Source of the DNA: an uncultured Methylococcaceae bacterium | GTDB taxonomy: Bacteria > Pseudomonadota > Gammaproteobacteria > Methylococcales > Methylomonadaceae | DNA: 37,183 bases | Direction of reading: 5' to 3' | Assembly: GCA_903905335.1 (NCBI GenBank) | Contig: CAIVGC010000247.1 | Location: 1 to 37,183, forward strand | Part shown: positions 17,883 through 23,146 of the stretch, piece by piece | Layout of the letters: each line of letters opens with the position of its first letter | Numbering within the stretch: the first letter of the stretch is position 1 | The notes under the pieces: generated by a model | Databases searched by the model: none | Told to the model about the DNA's origin: nothing | What the model saw: the letters and a program-made list of their open reading frames with translations, nothing else | Made by a program: the position numbers and the translations under genes

Positions 17883-18092
17883 ATGGCTGAAGAACAAGAA
17901 AAAGATAACACTTGGGTAATCGTTGGCGTATCTATCGCTGCTATCGTACTTTTAGTCGTTATGTTGAAAAAAGACGAAACTAAACATTTGCAAAGTGGCG
18001 CAGTTCAATCTTTACAAGCAGAAACTTTCTCTAAAATTGAGAAAAGACATACCTCAAATAACAGCTCTGCTGAAGCTATTTCAGGTAAGTAA
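17883..18092 (+). CDS. Small single-helix membrane protein
   Basis: This is a 69-aa protein with an acidic N-terminus (MAEEQEKDN), one transmembrane helix at about residues 11-28 (WVIVGVSIAAIVLLVVML), then KKDETK and a hydrophilic Ser/Asn-rich tail. By the positive-inside rule the tail faces the cytoplasm. I do not recognise the family. A consensus -35, two leader hairpins, a good GAGGA site and a GC-rich terminator mark it as a genuine, probably well-expressed monocistronic gene. The overlapping 67-aa track ORF at 17995 is a shadow. Confidence 0.7.
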   Translation: MAEEQEKDNTWVIVGVSIAAIVLLVVMLKKDETKHLQSGAVQSLQAETFSKIEKRHTSNNSSAEAISGK

Positions 18093-18099
18093 TTGCAGT

Positions 18100-18136
18100 A
18101 ACCCCCGTGAGGCTTGGCCGGCGGGGGTGTTTTATT
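18100..18136 (+). terminator. Rho-independent terminator of small membrane protein gene
   Basis: ACCCCCG and CGGGGGT form a GC-rich stem followed by GTTTTATT, eight bases after the stop codon. The rest of the gap to 18391 shows only a weak AGCCGAAG / CTTTGGCT hairpin and a doubtful 38-codon ORF (see rejected). Confidence 0.85.
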
Positions 18137-18391: not shown

Positions 18392-18592
18392 TTAACCCGC
18401 ACAAGAAGTTAGCCCAATAACGCTAAGTTTTAACGCTATTGGGCTAGCCTCCTGCTGCCTGTGTTTGGCATTACGACGATATTGGTTTTTATCAGCAAAT
18501 ATTTGGGCCTTATTAAACTGACGTGCGAACTTGGCTACGGGGTTTTGTATAGGAATACAATCTATTTTGTTTGGATTACTACGTTTTTTCAT
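18392..18592 (-). CDS. Tiny basic protein, ArfA-like ribosome-rescue candidate (or DUF7230-type)
   Basis: This is a 66-aa basic protein with an excellent site (AAGAGG, six bases before ATG), so it is a real gene. The middle reads NPVAKFARQFNKAQIFADKN, then QYRRNAKHRQQEASP. The Y-x-R-x-x-KH pattern after a Lys-rich stretch resembles the SYMRKGKH region of E. coli ArfA, which recruits RF2 to ribosomes stalled on mRNAs without stop codons. The C-terminus is short and hydrophobic (LKLSVIGLTSCAG), like the degradation-prone tail of full-length ArfA. A 13-bp hairpin sits within the last third of the ORF, as in arfA, where cleavage or termination there makes truncated, stable protein. The other option is an uncharacterised DUF7230-like family, whose similar NPVAK...KHR layout I recall. 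The homology call is tentative. Confidence 0.55.
   Translation of the reverse strand: MKKRSNPNKIDCIPIQNPVAKFARQFNKAQIFADKNQYRRNAKHRQQEASPIALKLSVIGLTSCAG
18410..18446 (-). promoter_or_regulatory. Hairpin inside the ArfA-like coding sequence
   Basis: TAGCCCAATAGCG and CGTTATTGGGCTA (minus-strand RNA sense) pair over 13 positions with an 11-base loop. The one non-Watson-Crick position is G-U in the sense RNA but would be A-C on the other strand, which suggests the structure matters in the mRNA of the small gene. It covers the codons of the hydrophobic tail, about 16 codons before the stop. No T run follows, so RNase III-type cleavage is more likely than termination. Confidence 0.6.
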
Positions 18593-18670
18593 GGTTTACC
18601 TCTTATAATAGTCAAAAGCCGATCTAATGGATGGGCGCAAATAGTGTACTACTCAGAGTGAAAAAAGCTT

Positions 18671-20542
18671 GTGAAATTTAAAAAAGATTTTGACGTAATT
18701 GTGGTGGGGGGCGGCCATGCTGGAACTGAAGCTGCTTTGGCCTCTGCGCGTAGTGGCGCGAATACTTTATTGTTAACGCAAAATATCGAAACCTTGGGGC
18801 AAATGAGCTGTAATCCGGCCATCGGTGGCATAGGTAAAGGTCATTTGGTAAAAGAGATTGATGCCTTGGGCGGCATTATGGCTAAAGCTATAGATCTTGG
18901 CGGCATTCAATTTCGAACCTTAAATGCCAGTAAAGGACCTGCAGTTAGGGCCACTCGCGCGCAAGCCGATCGACTATTGTATAAGCAGGCAGTGAGACAT
19001 ACTCTAGAAAATCAACCTAATTTGGCTTTGTTTCAGCAAACCGTGGCTGATTTAATCGTCGTCGGTAATCAAGTGTGCGGCGTTAAAACCCAGATGGGTT
19101 TAGATTTTATGGCTAAGGCTGTGGTGTTAACTACAGGTACTTTTTTGGGCGGTAAGATTCATATCGGCTTAGAAAATTATAGTGGCGGCCGAGCGGGTGA
19201 TCCCGCCTCGATTGCTTTAGCTGATCGTTTGCGTGAATTGCCTTTTCGTATAGATCGCTTAAAAACCGGTACGCCTCCGCGTATTGACGGCAGAACCATT
19301 GACTTTAGTAAGCTAGAAGAACAGCATGGCGATAATCCAGTGCCGGTGTTTTCTTTTATGGGCAAACGTTCGCAGCATCCACGACAAATCCCTTGTCATA
19401 TTACCCGTACCAACAGTAGAACACATGATATTATCCGTGCAGGTTTAGATAGGTCGCCTTTATATTCAGGTATTATTGAAGGTATAGGGCCACGTTACTG
19501 TCCTTCGATCGAAGATAAGATTGTGCGTTTTGCTGATAGAGATACTCACCAGATTTTTGTTGAGCCAGAAGGTTTAGATACTCATGAAATCTATCCTAAT
19601 GGTATTTCTACCAGCTTGCCGTTTGATGTACAGTATGAATTTGTGCGTTCGATGCTAGGTTTTGAAAATGCAGAAATTGTCCGCCCAGGTTATGCTATTG
19701 AATATGATTTTTTCGATCCTAGAGATTTAAAAATGTCTCTGGAAACTAAGCATATGAGTGCTTTATTTTTTGCTGGTCAAGTTAATGGTACGACCGGTTA
19801 TGAAGAAGCTGCGGCACAGGGTTTAATTGCTGGATTAAATGCTGCGCGTTTGGCGCAAGGCCTAGATAGCTGGTGTCCTAGGCGAGATGAAGCTTATATT
19901 GGAGTGATGATTGATGATCTCATTACTCGTGGTACTCAAGAGCCTTATCGCATGTTTACGAGTCGTGCAGAATACCGTTTATTATTGCGTGAAGATAATG
20001 CTGATTTACGCTTAACCGAAAAAGGTCGTGAATTAGGCTTAGTCGATGATGAGCGATGGCAATCCTTTGAAACTAAGCGTAATGCTATTGCTAATTTGCA
20101 GGATGATCTGAAAAAACAATGGGTGAGGGCGGAATCTGAGCAAGCTCTTCAAGTTGAAGAAATCTGGGGTAAGCCGCTACTTAAAGAGGCTAACTTAATG
20201 GAATTGTTGCGTAGACCTGAAATTGACATACAACGATTACTGGGCTTTTTTGAAGGAGGCGATGCCATTGCCGATCAAGTTGGTGAACAAGTCGAAATTC
20301 AAGCTAAGTATGAGGGCTATATCGTCAGGCAACAAACTGAAATTGATAAAGCTCTGCGTCACGATCATTTACGATTACCTGATACTTTGGATTACGCCGG
20401 TGTTCCTGGCTTGTCCAATGAAGTAAGTCAAAAACTTAAAGCTCAGCGACCTGAAACTTTAGGTCAGGCTTCACGAATTCCTGGCATGACACCTGCTGCG
20501 ATTTCCCTATTATTAGTTTATTTAAAGAAGAAAAGTGCCTAA
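18671..20542 (+). CDS. mnmG: tRNA uridine-5-carboxymethylaminomethyl modification enzyme MnmG (GidA)
   Basis: This 623-aa FAD- and NADH-dependent protein works with MnmE to modify U34 of tRNAs reading split codon boxes. The FAD loop is [19 protein letters not shown] at residues about 11-29. It is followed by the family signatures [18 protein letters not shown], the [16 protein letters not shown] segment, [18 protein letters not shown], and [19 protein letters not shown]. The C-terminal helical MnmE-binding domain (residues about 550-620) is complete. The start is GTG. It heads the mnmG-rsmG-parA-parB cluster; rsmG starts on the last base of its stop codon (TAATG), so translation is coupled. 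Confidence 0.97.
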
Positions 20543-21186: not shown

Positions 21187-21941
21187 TTGCCATAACTAAT
21201 CAAAAGGGTGGGGTGGGTAAAACCACAACGTCTGTTAATTTAGCAGCTACATTGGCTGCAGCCAAATGTCGAGTGTTGTTAATTGATCTTGATGCTCAGG
21301 GCAATGCCGCGATGGGTTGTGGTATTGATAAGCAGGAAGTCGAGTTTTCTAGTTATGATTTGTTGATGGAGGATGTGCCAGCTGCACAAGCAGTGGTTCA
21401 TTTGCCTAGTATTGGTTTTTCGGTAATATCTGGGAATGCTGATTTGACGGCTGCCGAAGTTAAATTAATTCATGCGGATCGTAAAGAGCAAAGACTGGCT
21501 GATGCATTGATGCCCATTAAAGCTGACTATGATTACATATTGATTGATTGTCCACCATCACTCAATATGCTGACTTTAAACGCCATGGTAGCCGCGGATA
21601 GCTTATTAATTCCGATGCAATGCGAATACTATGCATTGGAAGGTCTTTCGGCTCTGATGAGTACCTTACAAAATATTCAAAGCTCGGTGAATCCAGGTTT
21701 GCATTTGGAAGGTATTTTACGAACTATGTATGATGATAGAAATCGTTTAACTAAAGATGTGTCTGAGCAATTAATTCGCTATTTTGGTGATAAAGTTTTT
21801 AGAACGTGCATACCTAGAAATGTTCGTTTAGCTGAAGCTCCCAGTTATGGTTTGCCAGTAATCAGTTATGATAAATCCTCGCGTGGCTCGATGGCCTATA
21901 TTGCTTTAGCGAACGAAATGCTAGAAAGAAATAAATTATGA
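21174..21941 (+). CDS. parA: Chromosome-partitioning ATPase ParA (Soj)
   Basis: This 255-aa Walker-type ATPase forms a nucleoid-bound gradient that pulls ParB-parS complexes apart. The deviant Walker A is KGGVGKTTTSVNLAATLA at residues about 11-28, with both signature lysines. Walker A' is LIDLDAQGNAAMG and Walker B is YILIDCPPSLNMLT. There is no N-terminal HTH, so this is the short chromosomal (Ib/Soj-like) type. It overlaps rsmG upstream and overlaps the mini-ParB gene downstream by four bases (ATGA). Confidence 0.96.
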   Translation: MGKIIAITNQKGGVGKTTTSVNLAATLAAAKCRVLLIDLDAQGNAAMGCGIDKQEVEFSSYDLLMEDVPAAQAVVHLPSIGFSVISGNADLTAAEVKLIHADRKEQRLADALMPIKADYDYILIDCPPSLNMLTLNAMVAADSLLIPMQCEYYALEGLSALMSTLQNIQSSVNPGLHLEGILRTMYDDRNRLTKDVSEQLIRYFGDKVFRTCIPRNVRLAEAPSYGLPVISYDKSSRGSMAYIALANEMLERNKL

Positions 21942-22189
21942 GTTTTAAAAGTCGTGGTTTAGGACGAGGCCTTGAGGCACTGTTGCTTGATATCCCTACT
22001 AATGAAGAAAGGCCTATTGCGGTAAAGATAAATATCCCAGATGAAGAGTTAAATGAAGTTGAGACGATTAACAAGGTAGCAGAGTCAGTTGAATCGCCTA
22101 GTCGCCAGGAATGTTTTGCTATTTTGGCAGAGGCTCTAGTTTTAAAAGAATTGATGGTTGAGATTGAGCAACAAGTTCGTGATCTTTAA
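21938..22189 (+). CDS. Mini-ParB: stand-alone ParB N-terminal motif protein
   Basis: This 83-aa protein starts MSFKSRGLGRGLEALLLD, nearly identical in pattern to the start of the true ParB next door (MSLNKRGLGRGLDALLGD). In ParB/Spo0J proteins this N-terminal peptide touches ParA and stimulates its ATPase. The rest has no ParB CTP-binding motif and no helix-turn-helix. Residues 54-83 (QECFAILAEALVLKELMVEI) look like an amphipathic helix or short coiled coil that could dimerise. It starts inside the parA stop (4-base overlap) and is separated from parB by about 100 bases with a separate promoter. It is therefore made together with ParA. I infer a ParA-modulating adaptor that cannot bind parS. 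A decayed parB duplicate is the alternative, but the ORF is intact and coupled. Confidence 0.75.
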   Translation: MSFKSRGLGRGLEALLLDIPTNEERPIAVKINIPDEELNEVETINKVAESVESPSRQECFAILAEALVLKELMVEIEQQVRDL

Positions 22190-22288: not shown

Positions 22289-23146
22289 ATGTCTTTAAAT
22301 AAGCGTGGTTTAGGTCGTGGTCTTGATGCTTTATTAGGTGATGTTACCGTTAAAGAAGAAAAAAATCATTTGCATCTGTTGCCGATTGAATATTTGCAGC
22401 GAGGTAAGTATCAGCCGCGCCAAGATATTAATCCAGAAAAATTACAAGAATTAGCTGACTCAATTAAAGCACAGGGCATTATTCAGCCGATAATTGTTCG
22501 TCAACTTGCTTATGAAAAGTACGAAATAATTGCGGGTGAGCGGCGTTGGCGTGCTGCTCAATTGGCGGGTTTGACGCAAGTGCCGATCGTAGTTAAGGAA
22601 ATGGATGATCGTTCGGCTATGGCTGTTGCTCTGATTGAGAATATCCAGCGAGAAGATCTTAATCCTTTGGAGGAAGCTGAGGCATTAAAAAGATTGCTAG
22701 AAGAGTTTGAAATGACGCATCAGCTTATCGCTGATGCTGTGGGTAAATCTCGAACGACTATCACCAATTTATTGCGTTTAATTGAGTTACATCCTGAAGT
22801 AAAAAAATTACTGATCAGTAATCAACTAGAAATGGGGCATGCGCGCGCTTTATTATCTTTAGATGGCCCTAAGCAAGTCACCGCCGCTAATAAAGTAGTT
22901 AAAGATGGATTAACAGTAAGAGCAACGGAACGCTTGGTTAGAGAACTGCATTCCGAGCCTAAAATCCAAAAAATTAAAACCATTGACAAAGATACTTTGC
23001 GTTTGCAAGAAAGCTTAACTGCAAGTTTGGGTGCAAAGGTCGTTATTGATCATAAAGAAAATGGTTCTGGGAAATTAGTTATCGCTTATACCAGTCTGGA
23101 TGAGCTGGAGGGCATTATTAGTCAATTTAAAACCTACGAAAGCTAG
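22289..23146 (+). CDS. parB: Chromosome-partitioning protein ParB (Spo0J)
   Basis: This 285-aa CTP-dependent DNA clamp loads at parS. Domains in order are the ParA-contact peptide KRGLGRGLDALLGD (residues 5-18), the N-terminal CTPase domain with the GERRWRAAQLAG motif near 79-90, and ENIQREDLNPLEEA at about 113-126. Next comes the helix-turn-helix (QLIADAVGKSRTTITNLLRL at about 147-166), then a C-terminal dimerisation domain. All key motifs are present and length is normal. The site AAAGAGAA lies before the ATG. I saw no TGTTTCACGTGAAACA-type parS in the window. Confidence 0.96.
   Translation: MSLNKRGLGRGLDALLGDVTVKEEKNHLHLLPIEYLQRGKYQPRQDINPEKLQELADSIKAQGIIQPIIVRQLAYEKYEIIAGERRWRAAQLAGLTQVPIVVKEMDDRSAMAVALIENIQREDLNPLEEAEALKRLLEEFEMTHQLIADAVGKSRTTITNLLRLIELHPEVKKLLISNQLEMGHARALLSLDGPKQVTAANKVVKDGLTVRATERLVRELHSEPKIQKIKTIDKDTLRLQESLTASLGAKVVIDHKENGSGKLVIAYTSLDELEGIISQFKTYES

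Follow-up and report, generated by a model that had tools for sequence, protein, structure and literature searches.

ArfA, BrfA, and ArfT are the described ribosome-rescue factors closest in character to the gene reported here (facts on all three are drawn from PMC8012679, PMC3989581, PMC6881298, and PMC6299226). ArfA (YhdL; PF03889), found in beta- and gamma-proteobacteria, is a small basic protein with a KGKG(S) mRNA-channel motif, a Y-x-R-x-x-K-H motif, and a phenylalanine, F25, for the RF2 pocket; E. coli arfA gives rise to a nonstop mRNA through both RNase III and termination (PMC3989581). The product of that mRNA is tagged by tmRNA, and ArfA acts with RF2 to release the peptide from nonstop ribosomes. 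BrfA (YqkK) of Bacillus is likewise small and translated from a nonstop mRNA; it has N-terminal helices, a Lys-His contact in the mRNA channel, and a rho-independent terminator in its gene (PMC6881298). Rescue factors produced in this way have precedents in arfA of E. coli and brfA of B. subtilis (PMC3989581, PMC6881298). The KH of ArfA and BrfA is regarded as shared through independent evolution (PMC8012679). ArfT of Francisella tularensis is a short basic factor that depends on a release factor (RF) and lacks F25; its tail reads KKGGSTNKK, and its mRNA is not under ArfA-style control by termination or RNase III (PMC6299226). Reviews hold that further small RF-dependent rescue factors are probable, but that sequence similarity is a poor guide to them and genetic screens are required (PMC8012679, PMC6881298).

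The window considered here is a stretch of 37,183 nucleotides (contig CAIVGC010000247.1, positions 1-37,183; GCA_903905335.1) from an uncultured Methylococcaceae bacterium. Its minus strand carries an open frame of 66 codons plus TAA (18392..18592; stop at 18392-18394), with an ATG start and a Shine-Dalgarno-like AGAGG just 5' of it (18599..18603, minus strand). The 66-aa product matches DUF7230 (PF23876; E = 5.1e-20, 71.8 bits, above the gathering cut-off of 27), a Pfam family without assigned function; its closest relatives are in the Methylococcales, including Crenothrix, Methylobacter, Methylomicrobium, and Methylotuvimicrobium. The ORF has no match in NCBIfam, an Rfam search of the window gave nothing, a PDB search with two family members gave no relevant match, and a plasmid search gave no match. 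A second, weak match in the same genome (C60, E = 0.11) has an internal stop and was set aside. Alignments define a conserved protein core at codons 17-44 (18461..18544, minus strand; NPVAK...FNKA..F.D....Y.R..KH), which ends in a Y-x-R-x-x-K-H motif at codons 38-44 (18461..18481, minus strand; Y38, R40, K43, and H44) with the spacing found in ArfA. A first-pass annotation of the window had claimed a 66-aa ORF with a good ribosome site, this motif, a hydrophobic tail, and possible membership in a family listed as unknown; all held except the tail, a weak claim, since the C-terminus is only moderately hydrophobic and is not conserved.

Codons 47-64 of the ORF, just past the core, form an RNA hairpin of 25 stacked positions (18402..18454, minus strand; 20 Watson-Crick, 4 G-U, and 1 A-C) that is supported by folding and family comparison and ends 5' of the TAA stop, which lies outside it. 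It has an unbroken core of 17 pairs, two of them G-U (18410..18446, minus strand), closed by a 3-nt loop at 18427-18429. The 13-bp hairpin with a single G-U pair that had been annotated first is real but understated: the count of non-canonical pairs is right for the 13-bp part only. The inference then made from that one pair, that the hairpin is selected in the sense RNA, held, as the hairpin folded alone reaches -32.4 kcal/mol in the sense RNA vs. -20.4 kcal/mol in the antisense strand, and the G-U excess is family-wide (see below). The RNA of the whole ORF is also unusually stable (z = -4.4), with none of 200 shuffles equally stable. A terminator scan flags the hairpin core as terminator-like; as an intrinsic terminator the stem is weak, its tail ACTTCTTG lacking a real U-tract, and the locus thus does not have the BrfA-type intrinsic terminator inside the ORF. 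The window genome encodes tmRNA and has a gene for RNase III.

The flanking genes are context and lie outside this device. The divergent neighbor is mnmG (gidA; 18671..20542, plus strand), which is divergent in 90 of 129 loci and is followed downstream by rsmG-parA-parB. A short ORF with a ParB-like start, MSFKSRGLGRGLEALL (21938-22189, plus strand), lies 5' of the full parB (22289-23146, plus strand; MSLNKRGLGRGLDALL) and is probably a truncated parB duplicate. On the other side, CCCCCGTGAGGCTTGGCCGGCGGGGGTGTTTT (18101-18135, plus strand) resembles an intrinsic terminator belonging to the small convergent ORF at 17883-18092, a gene that would thus end without help from the DUF7230 hairpin.

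The hairpin is a property of the family. From 156 gathered loci, 129 of them distinct, the DUF7230 ORF was located by profile in six frames, and one script searched for hairpins in the 176 nt that start shortly before the KH codons end. Of the distinct loci, 120 have a hairpin with 16-28 Watson-Crick pairs spanning 19-35 positions, starting at -6 to +11 nt relative to the end of the KH codons and with loops mostly of 4 or 6 nt; the stop codon is 3' of the stem in 92 and within it in 28. The hairpin holds its position relative to the KH codons rather than to the stop, whose location ranges over about 50 codons, and it is kept where neighboring genes differ. A hairpin score of at least 35 is reached by 92% of the 129 loci vs. 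0.5% of dinucleotide shuffles, and hairpins of this score occur in 3.2% of control windows placed 100 nt 3' of the stop and in none of the upstream ones. The hairpin is not due to chance.

The stems have varied while keeping their pairing. In a gapless alignment of 36 dereplicated stems with 4-nt loops, 94.6% of cells are pairing vs. 70.7% after shuffling and 40-51% when slid; two-sided changes are found at 19 of 20 pairs, and the covariation score is 0.730 vs. 0.249. These stems were preselected for a 4-nt-loop hairpin, so the alignment informs on pair variation only, and the existence of the hairpin rests on the shuffle and control comparison. Taken together, the conservation and covariation checks proposed with the first-pass annotation find a strongly conserved, covarying hairpin. 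With neutral scoring, G-U pairs outnumber A-C mismatches in dereplicated stems by 236 to 82 (by sequence, G-U is in excess in 65 and A-C in 13); this ratio of about three identifies the sense RNA as the strand under selection. Only 10 of the 120 stems are followed by at least five T in 8 nt, and the stems amount to about two helical turns or more, which makes RNase III a likelier agent than termination. Two loci from another family (L010 and L011) have a classical intrinsic terminator within the ORF, AAAAGGCGATTCGG...CGAATCGCCTTTTTT, so that one protein family seemingly uses both routes to a nonstop message.

Constraint on the protein stops where the stem begins. In two sets of sequences, pN/pS is 0.19 and 0.15 over codons 1-46, indicating strong constraint, and a relaxed 0.46 and 0.52 over codons 47-66, the part that includes the hairpin. 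The length of the ORF past the stem is highly variable: some frames stop within the stem, and others run on for tens of codons. Where a strong hairpin is lacking, distant members mostly end about where hairpin-bearing members would be truncated, at 40-48 aa (L007, L008, L012, L013, and L015); another, L009, has 57 aa. From this pattern of constraint and early stops it is inferred that the working protein is likely the first 47-55 residues.

DUF7230 shares with ArfA a small basic product, the spacing of Y-x-R-x-x-K-H, and an in-ORF hairpin that starts just past the KH codons and either precedes or contains the stop. A similar script applied to 26 ArfA loci finds, in most, long stems close to the KH end that likewise precede or contain the stop; some show no stem. 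Other features set the two apart. The KGKG(S) motif is absent from all DUF7230 members, leaving a three-residue gap in the profile alignment; the residue aligned with F25 is N or K, so that F25 has no counterpart, at least in an alignment that is itself weak; and the NPVA...FN[KR]A...F.D signature is DUF7230's own. The likeness to BrfA lies in the small size, the nonstop mRNA, and the Lys-His pair, but most DUF7230 stems have no U-tract. Like ArfT, DUF7230 is short and basic without F25; it differs in having Y-x-R-x-x-K-H in place of the ArfT tail and in its conserved in-ORF hairpin. The ORF has no match to PF03889 even at E = 10 (gathering cut-off 25.5 bits). Filing DUF7230 as an ArfA member is accordingly rejected, weak profile-profile similarity making kinship only suggestive; the initial description of the gene as ArfA-like fits its anatomy and logic but does not extend to family membership.

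The distribution of the two families is also distinct. Among 201 Methylococcales genomes, DUF7230 is present in 143 and ArfA in none. In a class-wide sample of 369 genomes, DUF7230 occurs in 14, ArfA in 6, and both together in none, where the overlap expected by chance is itself below one. ArfB is found in 28 of the 143 Methylococcales genomes with DUF7230 vs. 28 of the 58 without it (p = 1e-4, without correction for phylogeny; the latter 28 include one broken copy). About 30 of the 201 genomes have no DUF7230, ArfA, or ArfB; another rescue factor, genome incompleteness, or reliance on tmRNA alone are possible reasons. No ArfB scores above the cut-off in the window's own genome, where the matches in longer frames resemble ordinary release factors. 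DUF7230 would be the sole recognized backup factor of this genome if the rescue function is true.

The explanation that best fits these observations is that DUF7230 is likely a separate family of RF-dependent ribosome-rescue factors, made from its own nonstop mRNA in the manner of ArfA and BrfA. In this model DUF7230 would be a backup factor that uses its own mRNA to sense trans-translation. The ribosome would translate the conserved core (codons 1-46) and then meet the long hairpin; the Methylococcales stem, with its 19-35 positions and mostly without a U-tract, would be cut by RNase III to give a nonstop mRNA, a role that in a few relatives would be taken by the intrinsic terminator within the ORF. 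As long as tmRNA-SmpB is functional, the truncated product would receive the tag and be degraded, whereas an overload of tmRNA would let untagged protein, about 47-55 aa long, build up. The basic tail with Y-x-R-x-x-K-H would occupy the mRNA channel left empty in a stalled ribosome, and the NPVA...FN[KR]A...F.D part would recruit a release factor, RF1 or RF2 being undetermined. RNA cutting, tagging, binding to the ribosome and release factor, and rescue itself are all inferred in the absence of any RNA or protein experiment. This absence, the missing KGKG and F25, the weak similarity to ArfA, the presence of ArfB in about a fifth of DUF7230 genomes, an ArfB contrast uncorrected for phylogeny, and the 30 genomes with neither factor are the points against a rescue-factor reading; the enrichment of ArfB where DUF7230 is absent counts in its favor. 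The gene family, the hairpin with its position relative to the stop, its covariation and sense-strand selection, the tmRNA and RNase III genes of the same genome, and the lack of ArfA are shown from sequence. The regulatory anatomy is as firm as sequence evidence allows; the rescue function is well supported, by analogy with ArfA and BrfA, and remains an inference. The earlier suggestion of a divergent rescue factor with self-sensing logic is supported to this extent.

An origin of DUF7230 as a far-diverged ArfA homologue, not as an independent invention, would be compatible with this explanation, and the evidence leans only slightly against it. In its favor, hhalign of the two profiles scores 18.8 (P = 0.0017), more than any of 300 column-shuffled ArfA profiles (maximum 18.0) and a reversed profile (9.0), and the N...Y.R..KH residues are collinear. 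Two loci just below the DUF7230 cut-off (L014 and L016, 36-44 aa; NP[VI]AK.VRTPRFR.RVV.D.KK) resemble ArfA NALKAQLRTPRFK in their middle part (VRTPRFRxRVV) and are possible intermediates, and the peptides under the 5' arm sometimes agree, as in KHRGKEPYSKAA* of an ArfA locus (L177) and KHKGQEPFPIRAA* of a DUF7230 locus (L137). Against it, the hhalign probability is only 9-16%, there is a gap at KGKG, the two families show no cross-family Pfam matches, and the KH that ArfA has in common with BrfA is itself held to have evolved independently (PMC8012679).

Two other explanations compete with the rescue-factor reading, and both are very unlikely. The hairpin could serve RNase III-based control of the amount of mRNA, through autoregulation or decay, for a protein that associates with ribosomes or binds nucleic acid but has no part in rescue. 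RNase III cleaves long stems, RNA binding is frequent among small basic proteins, and there are no experimental data on the function of the DUF7230 protein; but such elements are usually in untranslated regions, whereas this hairpin is always before or around the stop, directly after an ArfA-spaced KH motif, and ArfA genes have the same layout. Alternatively, the hairpin could be an ordinary 3'-end element, a terminator or stabilizer perhaps shared with a convergent neighbor, that overlaps a small basic gene of other function; hairpins are common near gene ends, the window core is flagged by the terminator scan, and L010 and L011 do have true terminators in the ORF, but T-runs follow few of the stems, the stem is entirely inside the ORF in 92 loci, its anchoring to the KH codons and its persistence beside different neighbors are not those of a 3'-end element, and a terminator at this site would still yield a nonstop mRNA, as in brfA.

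Relatives of DUF7230, 38-60 aa in length, are widespread in tailed phages. A family-profile scan matches 69 viral contigs from IMG/VR (L185-L253), and PHROGs 6310, 4586, 1359, 5724, and 2701, all listed with unknown function, match DUF7230 and share the core; searches return hundreds of phage records, many with weak E-values, and in 13 named phage examples (L255-L267) the core is present with profile E-values of 1e-15 to 1e-2. Most phage copies end soon after the KH part and have no hairpin in the ORF. The phage members as a hairpin-bearing group are rejected, their median hairpin score being 12 vs. 13 in control ORFs; a score above 22 is nevertheless found in 8 of 61 phage members vs. 2.7% of control ORFs (p = 0.001). 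Terminator-like hairpins lie within the ORF of Salmonella phage Munch gene 082 (L255:3001-3153), where the depositors' own annotation places a terminator within the CDS, PA5oct EST35_0191 (L256:1001-1153), L202, L207, and L213; CBB is also among the phage members with an in-ORF hairpin. In four viral contigs (L186, L191, L193, and L219) a fusion joins a short Cys-rich, zinc-ribbon-like segment (CRKCGKxF...YCSxxCE) to a DUF7230-like core that follows it, and in three T4-like phages (L258, L264, and L265) the relative is near asiA/the anti-sigma-70 factor gene. The copies without a hairpin may represent a version free of tmRNA control. A bolder reading, for which the case is evenly balanced, is that DUF7230 is a separate RF-dependent rescue family with members in methanotrophs, here and there in the gamma-proteobacteria, and in hundreds of tailed phages (Pakpunavirus, PA5oct, Munch-like jumbo, T4-like, and Vibrio phages), in which hosts would keep the tmRNA-sensing switch, most phages would be switch-less, and a few would have a terminator-type switch.

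In the literature searched, which was mostly open-access and left subscription journals largely outside, no paper names DUF7230, none links Methylococcales with ribosome rescue, and no title concerns phage-borne ArfA-like factors. A rescue factor is here proposed from sequence alone, with the nonstop-mRNA hairpin as its signature, in an order without ArfA. The proposal offers a likely function for Pfam DUF7230 and for five PHROGs of unknown function, and it suggests, in a form open to testing, that phages may supply ribosome-rescue factors of their own; the nonstop-mRNA hairpin signature would be a general route by which further families may be sought.
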